NCBI GenBank assembly: GCA_937904325.1
Contig: CALGTK010000077.1
Span: 1-59,124 of the forward strand
Source: an uncultured Planctomyces sp.
Lineage (GTDB): Bacteria > Planctomycetota > Planctomycetia > Planctomycetales > Planctomycetaceae
Reading direction: 5' to 3'
DNA length: 59,124 nucleotides
Shown here: positions 8,455 through 59,124 of the stretch, piece after piece
Layout: every line of letters begins with the position of its first letter
Position numbering within the stretch: position 1 is the stretch's first letter
Notes under the pieces: model-generated
The model's input: the letters and a program-made list of their open reading frames with translations, nothing else
Database searches by the model: none
What the model was told of the DNA's origin: nothing
Made by a program: the position numbers and the translations under genes

Positions 8455-8506
8455 CCGCGACACCCCTTGATATCAGTGAGAGCTTTTCGACAATCAGATT
8501 TCGGTA

Positions 8507-8990
8507 TCAGGCAGGTACTTCGTCAACGACGCGTCCGCAGACGTCGGTGAGTCGGAAGTCGCGACCGACGTAGCTGTACACCAGTTTGGATGTTCAAGGC
8601 ACCATTAGGTTCAAAATCGTGGCGTGTAGATCGTGGCGTGTAGATCGTGAACGTGGACTCGGCCATCGACTGCCGCGTACCCGAGTTCATCAGTTGCACC
8701 GTACTTTGTTCCGCCGTCAGCCAGCAACATTGTGTAACCGTTCGGGTTGCGATCGCGTCCGTCGAGATCTTTCTTCGCAGTGTCCGGCGTACGGCCGAAT
8801 TTGCCGCCCTGAACGACCAGCGTATCTTCCAGAATTATTCGTTGCTATCAGCTCGCCCAGCATAGTTCCGATCGCCTGGTCGGTCGAGGCCGCTCAGGAT
8901 TCGTGACCTTTCACCAGTGCGCTGTGCTGATCCCGGAATTCGTCGCAGACTTCGACATGCCGAACTCCGGATTCGATCAGAGTTACTTTA
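8507..8990 (-). pseudogene. Decayed DUF1501 gene (C-terminal part)
   Basis: Conceptual translation across frames recovers the C-terminal third of a DUF1501 protein: SGVRHVEVCDEFRDQHSALV, then [61 protein letters not shown] and finally YSYVGRDFRLTDVCGRVV ending at a TGA at 8507-8509. At least five lesions are visible: an in-frame TGA at 8894-8896, a frameshift near 8830, a 14-bp tandem duplication at 8616-8643 that shifts the frame, and single-base gain and loss near 8600 and 8587. The N-terminal two thirds are not recognisable. It sits between an intact DUF1501 gene and the left end of the inverted-repeat-bounded cassette, so decay may have followed that insertion; the order of events is inference. 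Confidence 0.85.
8616..8643. repeat. 14-bp tandem duplication inside the DUF1501 pseudogene
   Basis: The unit atcgtggcgtgtag occurs twice back to back (8616-8629 and 8630-8643) and is followed by a partial third copy (atcgtg). Removing one copy restores the reading frame [11 protein letters not shown] expected of the DUF1501 C-terminus, so this is a slippage-type duplication that broke the gene. Confidence 0.9.
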
Positions 8991-9330
8991 GAAAGTTGTG
9001 TTTGAGCAGATAGTGAACGCGGCGGCGTGTTTCGAGATGAATTGGTTGTTCAACAAGATTTCCAGGTCATCCAGGATGTAATTGGCAACCCGGAACGGAA
9101 CATGACAATTGCGTGAACGCGAGTTGTGGCGGAGTGTTTTCCGAATCCTGCGTAGCCAGTCACAATCGGAGTACGGTTGCCGTTATGATGTTAAGCCGTG
9201 GACGCATTGCATCACAATCCGAACTTGCTGGCAGTGACCTGCCCCCTTAACCGCGACCAGTTCCAGAGTAGCCGCTCACGACCACCGATTTTCTCACCAG
9301 AGATGGTTCAGGAAATGGAAGCAGGTGACA
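8991..9330. other. Degenerate interval between the DUF1501 remnant and the cassette
   Basis: No gene can be supported in these 340 bases. The minus strand should hold the N-terminal part of the decayed DUF1501 gene and perhaps the end of its usual DUF1553 partner, but I could not align any frame convincingly. Composition is mixed, and the interval ends exactly where the inverted repeat begins. Confidence 0.4.
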
Positions 9331-9378
9331 CAAAGCAAATCACCACTTAACGAGTGGTACCATTCGCGGGGGCAGGTC
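9331..9378 (+). repeat. Left inverted repeat of the cassette
   Basis: The copy starts CAAAGCAAATCACC and continues ACTTAACGAGTGGTACCATT and CGCGGGGGCAGGTCA. It matches the right copy (reverse-complemented) over about 48 bases with four substitutions and one 4-base gap. It also contains its own short palindrome, ACCACT-taacg-AGTGGT (9342-9358). The stop codon of the SGNH/TPR gene lies only about five bases inside the repeat. Confidence 0.85.
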
Positions 9379-9383
9379 AGTTT

Positions 9384-11504
9384 TTATCGATCGGCGTTTT
9401 CCGCGTCGCGCAGGCTGGCCGCGGCGACGGCATCGTCCGGGCGAATGCGGAGCACCTCGCGAAACTGCTGTGCCGCCTCGTCGTTGTGGCCAGCCTGCAT
9501 CAACATCACGCCGAGGTTGTTGTGGGCGTCGGCGTCATTCGGGTTCAGTTCGACGGCGCGGAAGTAGTGCTTGATGGCTTTTGTACGACGACCGAGATGG
9601 CTCAGCGCGTTAGCCAGGTTGTAGTGGATGTTGGCATCTCCGGGGCGCAGGACCAGGGCCGTCTCGAAATTTGGCAGAGCTTCTTCAAACCGCTGCTGCT
9701 CGGTGTGGATGGCTCCGATCATCTGCCAGGTGTGGGCGTCGTCTTTGCGGAGTTGTGTCAGTTCCGAGAAGTGGACGAGGGCCCCGTCCAGCTCGCCGCG
9801 CTCGACAAGCAACTGTCCCACCAGCTGATGAGCCATTTCCAGGTCCGGCCGGTGATGCAGAGCCCGGCGGTAGTGCTCGATGGCCTGCTCGACTCGGTAC
9901 GTCTCGGCCAGGTACGCCGCCGAAAGCACCAGGCATTCCGGGTCTTCGGGCAACTGTTGTACGGCCCGCATGGCAAGTGACCCCGCTTCCAGATGCTTGC
10001 CTGCCCAGTTAAGTACCTTGGCGAGGTTCCGCAACGCGATCGCATGCTGCCGGGAGTCGATACGGGACTCGATCAGATCGCCGACCTCGGCGAGCAGTTT
10101 CCTGTTTTTGTTCGGCGAGGAGCCGGCCTTGAGAATGTGCGAATCGATCATCTGCTCGACGATCGCCTGGGCCAGCAGGCCGTTTGTTTCGATCGTGGGA
10201 TGGACATGGTCGAGGAAAAAATCTTCGCCGAGCACCGTATGCCCGTGCTGCTGCCGGCACTGCTCCTCGACAAGCTGCTCAAAGTCGACGAGCGGCACGT
10301 TCAATCGCTCGGCCGTGCGGCGGACGATTTGCGGAATTTCACTGACGGCCCGCAGCGGGCAGACGTCTTCGTCGACGGCCCTTACGAACGCGGTCTGAGC
10401 CTGGTCGAACCGCTTCAGCTTCAGCAGCACGCGACCGGTTCGCCAGTGGAGTTCCGCAAACAGCGGATCCATTTTTGTGACTTGTTCATAAGCCGCCAGA
10501 GCGTCTTCGAGTTTTCTGTCCCGGTCAAGTTCCCGCGCCTGCTCGAAGAGCTGCGTCCACTCGCGAAGCTTCACGCCGGACAATTCGTCGGCGTGCTGGC
10601 TCTTGAAGGGCGAGCAGTCTTTCCGGTTGGACGCCGGTGTCACCAGGACGACCCGCGCTCCGGCACCGCGCGCGTGCTCGACGATCCTCGCGAGGTTGGC
10701 CTTGAAGTGCTCGAGAATCCGCCCGCGCTGATCCGGATCGCGGTAGTAGCTTGTCGGGCCGACCGTATGGTCGAGGACTGTGTCGACGTCGTCCGGGAGG
10801 TAAAAACGGTCGTCCTGCGGTTCAGGCTGATCGATCAGAAGTCGCTGAGCCAGCGCGGCGGTCCGCGTTTGAGTCAGCGCGGCGAGTACTCCCTGCCGAA
10901 CCGGCGAGGCGCATTTGATCTTACCGAAGGAGCGTTCTTCGAGAAATTCGTTCTGTCCGGTGTAGACGATGAAAACGTCGGGTTCGTACTGCGTCAGTTC
11001 GTCAGCCAGCCGGGCGAGGCGGTAGCTGGCGTAGCTGATCCCTCCGGCATTGATGACCTCCCACTTAGTCTGCGGCGCGATTCGCGGAAGCAGTTCGCGG
11101 AGCCAGCCGGGAAAGGATGTGGTGTCGTCGTACGGTCGGCCATAAGTCGTTGAGCCTCCCAGACAGAAGATCCGCTGCGTTCCGGTCGTTTTTTTTCGGG
11201 AGAAGGACTGCCGGTTGAACCAGGCGAGCTTGTTCTGTGAGGTGACCATCCGTGAGGGGTCGTCCGAGTCGGCGTCCCGCACAAACAGCGGCGAGCTGCC
11301 GTCGAACCCGAAAAACGGATCGCGCAGGTCAATCGCCGGTCCGACCCCCAGCAGCGTGAGTACGCCCTCCAGCAGGACGAAAAACAGGACCGTTGCTATG
11401 AGAGAGAACGCGAGTTTTTTTCGCCTTAATAATCGGCGGGATGAATCCGGGTTGTCTGGGGAGTCGCTCATTTGCGTTCTGCCGATGGGCACGCGGTTAG
11501 ACAT
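9384..11504 (-). CDS. Membrane-anchored SGNH hydrolase with C-terminal TPR array
   Basis: A 706-residue protein. Residues about 31-53 form one transmembrane helix, which should place the rest outside the cytoplasm. An SGNH/GDSL-type hydrolase domain follows: the nucleophile block is FCLGGSTTYG (Ser118), the Gly block is VINAGGISYASYR, the Asn block is YTGQNEF (183-186), and the catalytic His block is LDHVHPT near residue 430. The C-terminal half is tetratricopeptide repeats, e.g. LRPGDANIHYNLANALSHLG and LNPNDADAHNNLGVMLMQAG; a shorter TPR-like piece also interrupts the hydrolase domain. It likely removes ester-linked groups from a glycan, with the TPRs docking a partner. Its start is 8 bases after the stop of the propeller gene upstream, so the two are one operon. 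An alternative start is Met12 (11471). G+C is clearly above that of neighbouring genes. Confidence 0.9.
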   Translation of the reverse strand: MSNRVPIGRTQMSDSPDNPDSSRRLLRRKKLAFSLIATVLFFVLLEGVLTLLGVGPAIDLRDPFFGFDGSSPLFVRDADSDDPSRMVTSQNKLAWFNRQSFSRKKTTGTQRIFCLGGSTTYGRPYDDTTSFPGWLRELLPRIAPQTKWEVINAGGISYASYRLARLADELTQYEPDVFIVYTGQNEFLEERSFGKIKCASPVRQGVLAALTQTRTAALAQRLLIDQPEPQDDRFYLPDDVDTVLDHTVGPTSYYRDPDQRGRILEHFKANLARIVEHARGAGARVVLVTPASNRKDCSPFKSQHADELSGVKLREWTQLFEQARELDRDRKLEDALAAYEQVTKMDPLFAELHWRTGRVLLKLKRFDQAQTAFVRAVDEDVCPLRAVSEIPQIVRRTAERLNVPLVDFEQLVEEQCRQQHGHTVLGEDFFLDHVHPTIETNGLLAQAIVEQMIDSHILKAGSSPNKNRKLLAEVGDLIESRIDSRQHAIALRNLAKVLNWAGKHLEAGSLAMRAVQQLPEDPECLVLSAAYLAETYRVEQAIEHYRRALHHRPDLEMAHQLVGQLLVERGELDGALVHFSELTQLRKDDAHTWQMIGAIHTEQQRFEEALPNFETALVLRPGDANIHYNLANALSHLGRRTKAIKHYFRAVELNPNDADAHNNLGVMLMQAGHNDEAAQQFREVLRIRPDDAVAAASLRDAENADR

Positions 11505-11512
11505 CGTCGGGC

Positions 11513-14491
11513 TTACTTTGCTCCCAGACAGATTACTCGCCCATCCTGCGTCGAAACGTAAAGCCGTCCGCCGGCGACCGCGAGGCAGTCGTGGACCAGG
11601 CCGCCCTCGATGGCGTGCTCGGCGAGCCGCTCGCCACTGCCCAGGTCGTAGACGCGGACGCCGCTGTTGGCTCCCTTGCCTGTTTCATCTTCATAAAGAA
11701 CGCCGGCCACGTAGAGCCGATCGCCGGCCAGAACCATACCGCGCATGCGAGCCGTGTTGGGCATCTTGACCAGCCAGTCTTTTCCCGCAGCCAGCTTTGC
11801 GAACAGCACCGCGTTGCCGGACATCTCTCCGTTGCCGGTGCTGATCTTGCCGCAGGCCATATAGCCACACGTGGCCCGTTTGTTGAAGGTGAGCATCTGG
11901 CCGGTCGGACGATCGCCGACTTTCCATTCGGATAGATTGCGGCGGATGGCGATCGGGCGTTTCGTCCACGCAGCGTTCAGCAGACCCAGTCGTCCTCCAC
12001 GGAGGCGATCCTCACCGGCCTTTTTCGGCTTGCCGGTTTTCGCGTCGATTTCCCACGACCCCAACTGGATCGTGCCTTTGCCGGCAGTCAGGACGTCGGG
12101 CACTCCATCGTGCCCCTGGACGTGCTCGGCCCAGACGAGTGTTCCCGTCAGTGGGTTCACTGCCTGCACAAGCAACCCGCCGTCCGAGGCGCTGTGCCGG
12201 CCCGCGACGAAATATGCCAGGCCATCGTACACGAGAACGCCGCCGAGTACCGGTTGAGCGGATTCGATCTGACCGTACGCAACGATGCGGCGCTCACGTG
12301 GCGCGGCGCGGAACCGCCACAGCAGTTCTCCCTGGCTCACAGTGATGCAGTAAACCCAGCCGTCGTGCGACCCGAACAGACACCGGCCGTCGTCTATCGT
12401 CGGCGGGCAGTCGATCCGGCCGCCGGTTGTGTAGCTCCACCGTGGCTCGCCGGTTTTTGCGTCGAGGGCTACCAGGCGGTGGTGATCGCTGCTCGCGGCG
12501 AACGCCAGACCGTCGGCCACGACCGGACTGGTGAGCCGATCGGCGTCTTTCGAGTCCCACTCCAGCGCCACGGATTTCGGAATACGGTCAGCGATCCGGC
12601 GATCCCACAGGCGACCCAGTTGTGTCGGGCCTGCATGAGTCGTGCTGCCGCTTCGCGCGACATCACGACGGTACGTCGGCCAGTCCGACGGTGAAGACGC
12701 TTCACGAAGATTTTTTGCGCCGTGTCCGGGTCCGGTTTCCAGACGCTCGTCGTCGGGCAGCGGGTCCGTCTGCGGGCTCGTCTCCAGCGCAATGAAACCG
12801 CGGAGCATCACGTAACAGCCGCACGCATGAGGGAACGTATAAATCAGCCCGTTAGCCGGCACCAGGCCCGCCGTTCGGCAGGACGTGCGACTGGCTCCGA
12901 AGTGGCTGTATTTGCCGGTTTCCAGATCGGCGAAGTCCATCGAGCCGCACAGAAAAAACTGCTCGGTTGCAACGTCGTAACTGCAGCGGTGCTTGTAGGT
13001 AAATTCTTTGGGCTGCAGCAGGGTCTTCCTGATCTCGCCCGTTTTCGGGTCGAGGCCCTCCCAGGCGTACTGTTTTGTGCCTTTCGAATTTGCGGTGTGA
13101 ATCCAGACGAGCCCGTCGGAGTACATCACTTTTTCAAAGCTGCCGCCGTGACCGATTTTGTCGTAGGTGTATTCCCACAGGTGGGAACCATCCTTGGCCG
13201 AGACCGCGTGGTTTGCGTCTTTCGTGGCGGCGACGAGAACTCCGTCACTGTAAAAAATCAACGTGAACGCGGCTTCCTTCGCCCACGACTTTGTCGAGGC
13301 GTTCCAATCCTGTTCACCGGTCTTCAACTTAAAACAGATGAGCTGCGAATCGGTGCCGCGGCGTGAGTTGTCGACGTGGACGAACAGCCGCCCGTCGCCG
13401 GCACGCATTCGCGTCGACGCGATCGATTCCGACCAGACCCTCTTTCCGGTTTCCGGGTCGAATGCGTTGATGCTGTTCGAGTTTGCCACGACGAGCAACC
13501 CGTCGCTAAGTAGAAACTCGCCAGGTGATGCGACCTCAAACCTGCGATCCACCTCGCCGGTCTCCCCGTTGAGGGACACGAGCTTGTCGTCGACCTTCGT
13601 GTAAATCCGACCCCCGGCCGAAATGAGTTCCAGTGAGTCCGCCTTGCGTCGCCACAGCCGGAGTCCGTTGTAAACGTCCCGGACGATCAGCGAGTTTTCT
13701 TTACTCATTCCTTTTGCGGTTTTGACCTCATCCTGAAAAACGACGGCCAGATGCCGGTCCGACGCGACGGCCGCGGGGGTTGAGGCTTTGCGGTCTCCGG
13801 TCGGCCAGTTGGGCCCGGCCACCCAGCGCACGCCCGTCGGCACTCCGATCTGTCTGTCGCTCGAAACCGGGTTGCCGTTCGCATCACCGCGGGGGTGAGT
13901 CCACTCGTCCATGCTCTTCGGTCGAGACTTTCGCAAACGAACCCAGCCGCCGTCTTCTTCCAGTGCGACGGTCCCCGGTCCCTCGAAGAATTCCTGCAAC
14001 CGTTCTTCGGAGACTTTTCTTCCGTCGGTGTTCCAGTTGCCCAGCCACACGACCCCGCCCGGCCGCAGGATTCGCTGCACCTCTTGCAACTGAAGCCCGT
14101 TTTCGAGTGCCCCTCCGGTGTTTTCGATGACCACGAGGTTGACAATATTGTCCGAGTAAGGCAGCTGTTTGACCGATCCGGTCTCTACTGAAACAACGCC
14201 GCGCAGCTCGGCCTTGGCGATCACCTGCCGGACCCTCGCGACGGCTTCGCGGTTCGTGCAAAGGCCGTGGACGAGGTACTGTCCGTCGCGCGACAGTTCG
14301 ACCATCAGTCGGCCGTCTTCAGTGCCCAGAACCACACACAGTCCCTTTTTGCTGCCGATCGACCGGTGCATTTCCGTCGCGAGCCCGGTCGGCTGATCCT
14401 GTGCCTCTGCCGAGTGTACATAACCGGAGGAGACAAGGATCGTCAGCAGGGCGAGAGTCAGGCTGGTGCGTCGTAGTTCACATCGCAACAT
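11513..14491 (-). CDS. Secreted methyltransferase-like / PQQ beta-propeller fusion protein
   Basis: A 992-residue exported protein. The ATG at 14491 has GGAG about 10 bases upstream and starts a signal peptide (MLRCELRRTSLTLALLTILV, ending near SAEAQ). After it comes a Rossmann-type methyltransferase-like module: VSVETGSVKQLPYSDNIVNL, VVIENTGG and EVQRILRPGGVVWLGNW, the pattern of Methyltransf_11 domains. The classic glycine-rich SAM loop is weak, so catalysis is doubtful. From WTHPRGDANGNPVSSD onward the protein is a long PQQ-like beta-propeller (DVYNGLRLWRRKAD, SLNGETGEVDRRFEV, FDPETGKRVWSESI, LDAKTGEPRWSYT) ending DGRVICLGAK. A resident protein at 34477-38820 has the same module order. It is first in the cassette operon. 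The frame is open to 14899, through the right inverted repeat, but that extension has no export signal and crosses the repeat. Confidence 0.88.
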   Translation of the reverse strand: MLRCELRRTSLTLALLTILVSSGYVHSAEAQDQPTGLATEMHRSIGSKKGLCVVLGTEDGRLMVELSRDGQYLVHGLCTNREAVARVRQVIAKAELRGVVSVETGSVKQLPYSDNIVNLVVIENTGGALENGLQLQEVQRILRPGGVVWLGNWNTDGRKVSEERLQEFFEGPGTVALEEDGGWVRLRKSRPKSMDEWTHPRGDANGNPVSSDRQIGVPTGVRWVAGPNWPTGDRKASTPAAVASDRHLAVVFQDEVKTAKGMSKENSLIVRDVYNGLRLWRRKADSLELISAGGRIYTKVDDKLVSLNGETGEVDRRFEVASPGEFLLSDGLLVVANSNSINAFDPETGKRVWSESIASTRMRAGDGRLFVHVDNSRRGTDSQLICFKLKTGEQDWNASTKSWAKEAAFTLIFYSDGVLVAATKDANHAVSAKDGSHLWEYTYDKIGHGGSFEKVMYSDGLVWIHTANSKGTKQYAWEGLDPKTGEIRKTLLQPKEFTYKHRCSYDVATEQFFLCGSMDFADLETGKYSHFGASRTSCRTAGLVPANGLIYTFPHACGCYVMLRGFIALETSPQTDPLPDDERLETGPGHGAKNLREASSPSDWPTYRRDVARSGSTTHAGPTQLGRLWDRRIADRIPKSVALEWDSKDADRLTSPVVADGLAFAASSDHHRLVALDAKTGEPRWSYTTGGRIDCPPTIDDGRCLFGSHDGWVYCITVSQGELLWRFRAAPRERRIVAYGQIESAQPVLGGVLVYDGLAYFVAGRHSASDGGLLVQAVNPLTGTLVWAEHVQGHDGVPDVLTAGKGTIQLGSWEIDAKTGKPKKAGEDRLRGGRLGLLNAAWTKRPIAIRRNLSEWKVGDRPTGQMLTFNKRATCGYMACGKISTGNGEMSGNAVLFAKLAAGKDWLVKMPNTARMRGMVLAGDRLYVAGVLYEDETGKGANSGVRVYDLGSGERLAEHAIEGGLVHDCLAVAGGRLYVSTQDGRVICLGAK

Positions 14492-14532
14492 GGCGCGGTG
14501 CTCCGTTTGTTTGTGTTGGCAGAACGAGCAGC

Positions 14533-14548
14533 GCCAGTTTCCACTGGC
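14533..14548 (-). promoter_or_regulatory. Short hairpin in the leader of the cassette operon
   Basis: The minus strand carries GCCAGT-GGAA-ACTGGC, a perfect 6-bp stem with a GGAA loop, about 45 bases upstream of the start codon at 14491. It could be an operator half-site pair or an mRNA leader hairpin. No T-run follows it. Confidence 0.3.
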
Positions 14549-14657
14549 ACTGGCCCGTCGTGAGAATTCTATCAGACCGACCCTCACGCAAAGAACCGGG
14601 GCATCTGCTACTAATTCGCAGTCATCCTTATCGTCTGGCCGTTGAGTCTCTGGTTTG

Positions 14658-14708
14658 ATCTGCCGCCGTGAATGGTACCACTTGTTAAGTGGTGATTTGT
14701 TTGCTTTG
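14658..14708 (-). repeat. Right inverted repeat of the cassette
   Basis: Read on the minus strand from 14708 it begins CAAAGCAAACAAATCACC, then ACTTAACAAGTGGTACCATT and CACGGCGGCAGATCA. Compared with the left copy there are four base changes and a 4-base insertion after CAAAGC. The internal palindrome ACCACT-taaca-AGTGGT is preserved. The copy sits about 165 bases upstream of the first cassette gene. Confidence 0.85.
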
Positions 14709-14957
14709 AATGGTCGTGAAAACAGCCTCTGGAGCCGGTGAACTGTCGCCAGGTGAGCAGTGCAGTCGCACGGCATTGTCGAGTTGCGGCGACACACGAA
14801 GTCTACATCCCCTGCTTGTCCCCCTGAAACCATGCCGCGTGCATCGGCAACGACGCCGTTCTGAGTGGTGAAATTATCACTTCCGCAGCCTGCTGGCACA
14901 GTTCGGGCTGGCTTCGATGAGGCGGGTGAGACGGTGGATGCGTTGTGAGGATCTCCT
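14709..14957. other. Right flank of the cassette, no gene recognised
   Basis: A minus-strand frame stays open here (from 14899) but its composition is not protein-like, with no recognisable motif and no credible start. No target-site duplication matching the left flank was found. Confidence 0.4.
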
Positions 14958-15545
14958 TCATTTACGGGTCGGCGTATTTTTTGACCTTACGACGCTCCGA
15001 TTTTCATCCGACGGCCACATCCCGCCTGACGCTTCGTTTTCTGACTGGCGTCTACAATCGAACCCGTGAAAGCAGAGATCGAAGTCGAGCGACTCAGAAA
15101 ATTCAACGAATAGTCGCTTTACGGTTGCCAGTGAGCCACCGTCCCCGATATCGCTAATCGTGATCGAGTCGCCGACGACAATGGGAAGAGAGCAAAGATC
15201 AGGTTCGATGAATTCAACTTTTGCATCCATCGCCATGATGCCTTCACGAGAGTAGTAATTCAGCAACGCCTGCTTCTTGAGCAGTTCGGGGTGCATTTCG
15301 CTGAACTCTTCAGATGACTCGTGCGGTCCGGTCTGTAAGTTTGCAGCAAACACCAGCCTCACGTATGCCTGAGTGATAGTCTCGTGATAACTATTGTCAA
15401 TCGCCTCAGGTGTGTCGGTGGCTTTGTTGTATGCCTTGATAGCCGCCCGCATTAAATCGATATAGCACCATAACGCATAAGGTTGGCCCTGTCCGGTGAC
15501 TCTTAGACGGGACGTGTCGTCGGAGCGTGCTACAAAAATTAACAA
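14958..15545 (-). CDS. Hypothetical protein downstream of nuoD
   Basis: An open frame of up to 195 residues beginning 16 bases after the nuoD stop on the same strand. I do not recognise the family. The central part (about 25-165) has well-mixed, protein-like composition, for example YALWCYIDLMRAAIKAYNKA and FIEPDLCSLPIVVGDSITIS, with no membrane segment. The first codon of the full frame is TTG (15545); the first ATG is at 15452 and would give 164 residues. The last 30 residues are charged and low in information and could reflect a late frameshift. The spacing suggests it is the last gene of the complex I transcript. Confidence 0.5.
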   Translation of the reverse strand: MLIFVARSDDTSRLRVTGQGQPYALWCYIDLMRAAIKAYNKATDTPEAIDNSYHETITQAYVRLVFAANLQTGPHESSEEFSEMHPELLKKQALLNYYSREGIMAMDAKVEFIEPDLCSLPIVVGDSITISDIGDGGSLATVKRLFVEFSESLDFDLCFHGFDCRRQSENEASGGMWPSDENRSVVRSKNTPTRK

Positions 15546-58890: not shown

Positions 58891-59124
58891 GGGAGCATCG
58901 GGACGACTGGGCCTTCGATCTGTACGAAGACCGGCCAGCTTGTAGACGCCGGTCAGAAAACGTAGCGCCGGGCGATGAGTGGCGGCCGGATGAAAAGCGT
59001 AGCGCCCAGATGATCACTTGTAGCTGCCATTTCAGACTTTCGGAGAATCCGAAATCGTTTGAATTGGCGTGCTATGGGGGACAAGGGTGTACACCGATAT
59101 GGAGCAGTGGATTGAGATTCGCCG
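58891..59124. other. Right-edge interval without a recognised gene
   Basis: No gene is seen. Two imperfect copies of a short motif (acgtagcgccgggcgatga and gcgtagcgcccagatga) lie about 40 bases apart at roughly 58960-59012. Confidence 0.3.

Follow-up and report, generated by a model that had tools for sequence, protein, structure and literature searches.

The window, a 59,124-nucleotide stretch of DNA from an uncultured Planctomyces sp., carries two tightly coupled genes, encoded on the same strand and separated by 8 bases, between two copies of a 47-nucleotide sequence in inverted orientation. The initial annotation had recognized this arrangement; at the outer edges, its coordinates differ from those given here by about 2 bases at most. 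The two repeats (9333-9379 and 14656-14702) are 89% complementary, enclose a spacer of 5276 nucleotides and form the top-scoring inverted pair of the 7-kb region. Beyond 9333 and 14702, a few more bases align only with a 4-base gap. The following features are found in and around this cassette:

8500-8979, minus strand: remains of the 3' part of a DUF1501 gene, in decay here and intact in genus-mate G003 (82% identity to G003 contig C39, with indels)

9235-9270, plus strand: left end (IRL) of an IS3-family insertion sequence (IS), the left remnant, with its tip TGACCTGCCCCC at 9235; aligns with its counterpart in the intact IS of G023 (L119) and with at least 7 more copies in the genome

9278-9329, plus strand: terminal piece of another IS3-type element that is nested inside the left remnant, tip facing right; 86-94% identity to dispersed copies

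9333-9379, plus strand: left repeat copy; right inverted repeat (IRR) closing the left IS3 remnant and including the final OrfB codons and stop (..QITT, stop), tip at 9379 toward the cargo

9384-11504, minus strand: cargo gene 2, an SGNH/GDSL hydrolase with TPR repeats, 706 aa (Pfam Lipase_GDSL_2 and TPR; GC3 0.758)

11513-14491, minus strand: cargo gene 1, a methyltransferase-like N-terminus joined to a PQQ-type beta-propeller, 992 aa from the ATG at 14491 (Pfam Methyltransf_11 and PQQ_2; GC3 0.733)

14656-14702, minus strand: right repeat copy; IRR belonging to the right IS3 remnant, tip (14656) toward the cargo

14656-14784, minus strand: 3' end of IS3-family OrfB (DNAVRLHCSPGDSSPAPEAVFTTIQSKQITT, stop), about 30 codons with the IRR; 81% identity over 124 bp to the transposase end on contig C435 and 86% over 129 bp to G005:C4

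14797-14949, no strand assigned: dispersed repeat with many genome copies (73-97%)

15187-15440, minus strand: neighbour-gene fragment (82% identity to 9599-9852 of L056, a locus on G003:C39)

Neither cargo protein reaches a curated cut-off for a specific function, and a role of the pair at the cell envelope is a guess. Among named genomes, the PQQ protein has a single weak relative (31%) in a Phycisphaerae MAG, and no named source of the pair was found. By its gene content (DUF1501, sulfatases, PQQ propellers), the genome is planctomycete-like. The region was also considered as an RNA family; this reading was rejected because Rfam gives no match there.

Searches of the whole 8-Mb genome reveal the nature of the repeat. 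The second copy in the window is recovered at E = 4e-11, and four further copies reside on other contigs, giving six detected at E <= 0.001; a few weaker ones are also seen. The initial annotation had proposed such a search for pairs flanking other cargo. Additional copies do exist, but on contigs C435 and C141 the same end merely closes transposase fragments: the repeat follows an open frame whose sequence (..EPGSPWENGLIESFNGKLRDELL..) is typical of IS3-family OrfB, and on C435 it contains the stop codon of this frame. Both NCBIfam NF033516 (IS3 family transposase; E 2e-26) and Pfam rve_3 are hit by the fragment on C435. No other cargo between a convergent pair of this end was found in a non-exhaustive search of the genome.

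Whole elements of this type are present in other genera of the family. The copy in G023 is 1283 bp long (L119, 589-1871), that in G018 is 1291 bp (L118, 1394-2684), and both have the ends TGACCTGCCCCC...GGGGGCAGGTCA. The G023 element encodes an IS3-type DDE transposase, as indicated by matches to NF033516 (E 3e-71), rve, rve_3 and HTH_21. Their right ends align with the repeat in the window, and their left ends with 9235-9270. The repeat is the 3' end of OrfB, including its stop codon, together with the IRR of an IS3-family element whose tip is TGACCTGCCCCC. The terminal repeats expected of IS3 elements, which start with TG and end with CA, are in place: TGACCTGCCCCC occurs at 9235, its complement ends at 9379, and TGATCTGCCGCC occurs at 14656. 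The inverted ends are thus like those of IS3-family elements, whose intact relatives encode OrfA/OrfB with HTH_21 and rve domains (NF033516). Unlike these relatives, both copies in the window are remnants in which the 3' end of OrfB is all that is left of the transposase, about 5 codons in the left copy and the 30 or so noted above in the right.

The orientation of these ends gives the cassette the build of a decayed composite transposon and not that of a unit bounded by terminal repeats of its own. The element tips (TGAC/TCTGCC) lie on the cargo side of each repeat, with the left tip 4 bases from the cargo stop codon. The IS bodies therefore extend outward, and their remnants are found outside the cargo. 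If a transposase acted on the two inner ends, it would not take the cargo along as a unit. This geometry bears on the initial annotation, which described an apparent non-autonomous cargo unit with its own terminal inverted repeats, a candidate palindromic recognition site and a transposase encoded elsewhere. An inverted repeat pair does bound the two genes, and the cassette has no transposase of its own, as had been stated; the boundaries are formed by mobile-element ends. However, each repeat is the right end of its own IS3-family remnant, with the element body on the outside, and encodes the end of a transposase. The palindrome, ACCACT...AGTGGT, surrounds the OrfB stop codon. Its 6-bp stem is broken in two genome copies (C141 and C317) and it is absent from the relatives in G018, G023 and G057, the intact ones included, so it was rejected as a recognition site. 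A cargo unit of this kind is scarcely credible. The related statement that nothing but two genes lies between the repeats holds for the inside of the cassette, but each repeat is itself the end of a transposase gene, and there are IS scraps next to it on both sides. The lesson is that cargo framed by inverted repeats may lie between the inner ends of flanking IS remnants, and that such repeats need not be the termini of a new transposable unit.

The left remnant (9235-9379) resembles the short, MITE-like derivatives of IS elements in that it is 145 bp long and retains both ends without a transposase. Unlike these derivatives, it holds the foreign IS end at 9278-9329, and full-length, near-identical copies of it were not found; it therefore looks like a decayed single copy. 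Some of the dispersed copies of the 9278-9329 fragment adjoin IS3 OrfB-like frames (L089, L094/L112). On the right, the outer end (IRL) was not found beyond 14656-14784 or the dispersed repeat that extends to about 14949. Segments similar to this dispersed repeat adjoin an IRL-like end in other copies. The 3-5 bp target-site duplication characteristic of IS3 elements is absent at every tip, where the adjacent bases are GGCAG before the IRL, GTTTT after one IRR and TGGTT before the other. This is not surprising for old, rearranged IS copies.

Comparison with genus-mates indicates that the cassette occupies a variable stretch behind the nuo genes. The nuoD gene is 98-99% identical to that of this genome in G003 and G005 and 96% identical in G004, and the DUF1501 gene downstream is 94% to 92% identical across the three. 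The cassette is absent between nuoD and DUF1501 in all three of these genomes, and the site itself is rearranged. Spacing between the two genes is about 11.6 kb in G003, 1.1 kb in G004 and 0.8 kb in G005, and the contents are unrelated. The decaying gene described earlier at the left of the cassette is real: 8500-8979 is the tail of a DUF1501 gene that G003 has intact, and synteny with G003 ends at 8979/8980. In G003, the gene represented by the fragment at 15187-15440 is followed by a long cytochrome-domain-type gene and then by a complete copy of the DUF1501 gene with the decayed tail; the cytochrome-domain-type gene and most of that DUF1501 gene are missing from the window. Flanking DNA in G003 is 82-90% identical, and about 3.8 kb is present there where the window has the insert and its repeats.

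The intervening stretch of G003 has a content of its own. Behind nuoD, positions 2627-8253 of L056 carry a cluster, absent from the window, that looks related to RNA repair or tRNA. Its members, assigned by eye, appear RNA-ligase-like, tRNA-His guanylyltransferase-like, kinase/HD and peptidyl-tRNA hydrolase-like.

The gene pair is found elsewhere in one genus-mate. G003 carries it on contig C24 beside sulfatase genes, in the same gene order and with 72.6% nucleotide identity, and no IS3 frame of this type occurs around it in the 19 kb examined. The PQQ gene of this copy (L030, 5291-8276) seems broken, with frame changes and in-frame stops in its N-terminal half. The other four genus-mates, one of which is an incomplete genome (G002, 59%), have only distant paralogues of the pair (36-40%).

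Composition and divergence set the pair apart from its surroundings. The cassette had been described as G+C-rich, and a check of G+C and codon usage bears this out: G+C is 61.4% between the repeats, the highest of any 5.3-kb stretch of the window, versus 53.8% elsewhere. GC3 is likewise an outlier, at 0.73-0.76 in the two cargo genes compared to 0.53-0.68 in other large non-overlapping open reading frames. G+C alone was not taken as proof of transfer, and synonymous divergence and synteny were added. Between this genome and G003, dS (NG86) is 1.16 for the GDSL-TPR gene and 1.22 for the C-terminal part of the PQQ gene, versus 0.43 for nuoD and 0.39 for DUF1501 among neighbouring core genes. These values are about threefold higher for the pair. 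Joint descent of the pair and the core genes from the latest ancestor shared by this genome and G003 is therefore improbable. The dN/dS ratios of the pair (about 0.19 and 0.12) point to purifying selection, such that both proteins have been kept.

These observations bear on whether the pair could be old in the genus and lost in relatives, with IS elements having rearranged only its surroundings. A homologous pair with the same gene order in one genus-mate speaks for such a history. However, the G003 pair is at a different site, a close match is absent from the other four genus-mates, and both the dS excess and the GC3 values run counter to long residence, so that an ancestral pair is quite improbable. 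Horizontal acquisition of the gene pair is probable instead. The acquired block that the initial annotation had envisaged is in keeping with its absence at the syntenic stretch in three genus-mates, its presence elsewhere in one, and its deviant G+C and GC3.

How the pair reached this site is a separate question. Composite transposons can be built from IS3-family elements, for example, Tn3411 with IS3411. The window is alike in that accessory genes reside between two copies of one IS, here inverted remnants. Of the outer ends, the left is present at 9235 and the right is missing. We somewhat favour an arrangement of this kind, in which an acquired accessory pair sits between two decayed, inverted copies of one IS3 element that likely moved with it. 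Two IS3 copies would once have flanked the pair in inverted orientation, with their right ends and transposase 3' ends beside the cargo. The ISs and the pair would then have entered the variable interval that separates nuoD from a DUF1501 gene, and later deletions and nested IS insertions would have trimmed the ISs to their ends. With no more than six copies of this end detected at E <= 0.001 across 8 Mb, chance would seldom place two of them in convergent order, 5.3 kb apart and directly beside a single gene pair. Unlike the Tn3411 type, the ISs here are decayed, lack target duplications and have lost the right outer end, and a second IS-bracketed copy of the pair is not known. The identity and orientation of the repeats, the lack of the cassette at this site in genus-mates and the signs of foreign origin in composition and divergence are established, whereas joint transposition of ISs and cargo as one unit is inferred. 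The simplest readings of the locus are a relic composite transposon or IS-assisted recruitment to a permissive site.

The absence of target duplications and of the right IRL also counts toward a different history, in which the pair arrived otherwise, by illegitimate or homologous recombination into an IS-rich spot, and two IS3 copies inserted independently, earlier or later. The bracket would then be coincidental and never composite. Several unrelated repeat scraps on both sides of the cassette (8980-9070, 9278-9329, 14797-14949 and 14993-15057) are consistent with this scenario, as are the differing contents of the nuoD-DUF1501 stretch among G003, G004 and G005, which are expected of a permissive spot, and the G003 copy of the pair without such an IS. 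IS scraps also cluster elsewhere, on C317 and G005:C4, which makes independent insertions beside the pair possible. However, the same end of the same IS would have to land twice, convergent and flush with the pair, even though few copies are detected in the genome. Independent insertion is a real contender, yet less probable than the composite-like origin favoured here.

A bolder proposal is that the pair, an unrecognised accessory unit of a PQQ propeller/methyltransferase-like protein with a GDSL-TPR hydrolase, has moved repeatedly between planctomycetes via IS3 elements, perhaps under selection for an envelope function. Repeated movement of this sort seems rather unlikely. A literature search on IS3 composite transposons and planctomycetes found nothing specific. 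Nothing in this decayed example calls for a new category, as IS3-family ends, composite arrangements and the acquisition of gene pairs are each familiar. The locus puts on record a variable site that lies behind the nuo genes in one genus, as well as an acquired pair maintained by selection; otherwise, it reflects ordinary genome plasticity.

Several dispersed sequences near the cassette merit brief description. Window positions 8980-9070 hold a 91-bp sequence (GAGTTACTTTAGAAAGTTGTGTTTGAG...) with copies 86-90% identical in G001, G002 and G003. All copies begin at the same base, and the others continue into shared sequence that is absent from the window. A 65-bp repeat occurs at 14993-15057 and, inverted and 82% identical, at 58940-59004, and more copies are found on other contigs. 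The 33-bp left-end sequence TGACCTGCCCCCTTAACCGCGACCAGTTCCAGA (window 9235-9270) has about 10 or more copies in the genome, and its conservation exceeds that of the remaining element. Several of these copies lie near a segment resembling 14851-14910, and they possibly represent a short non-autonomous IS derivative.
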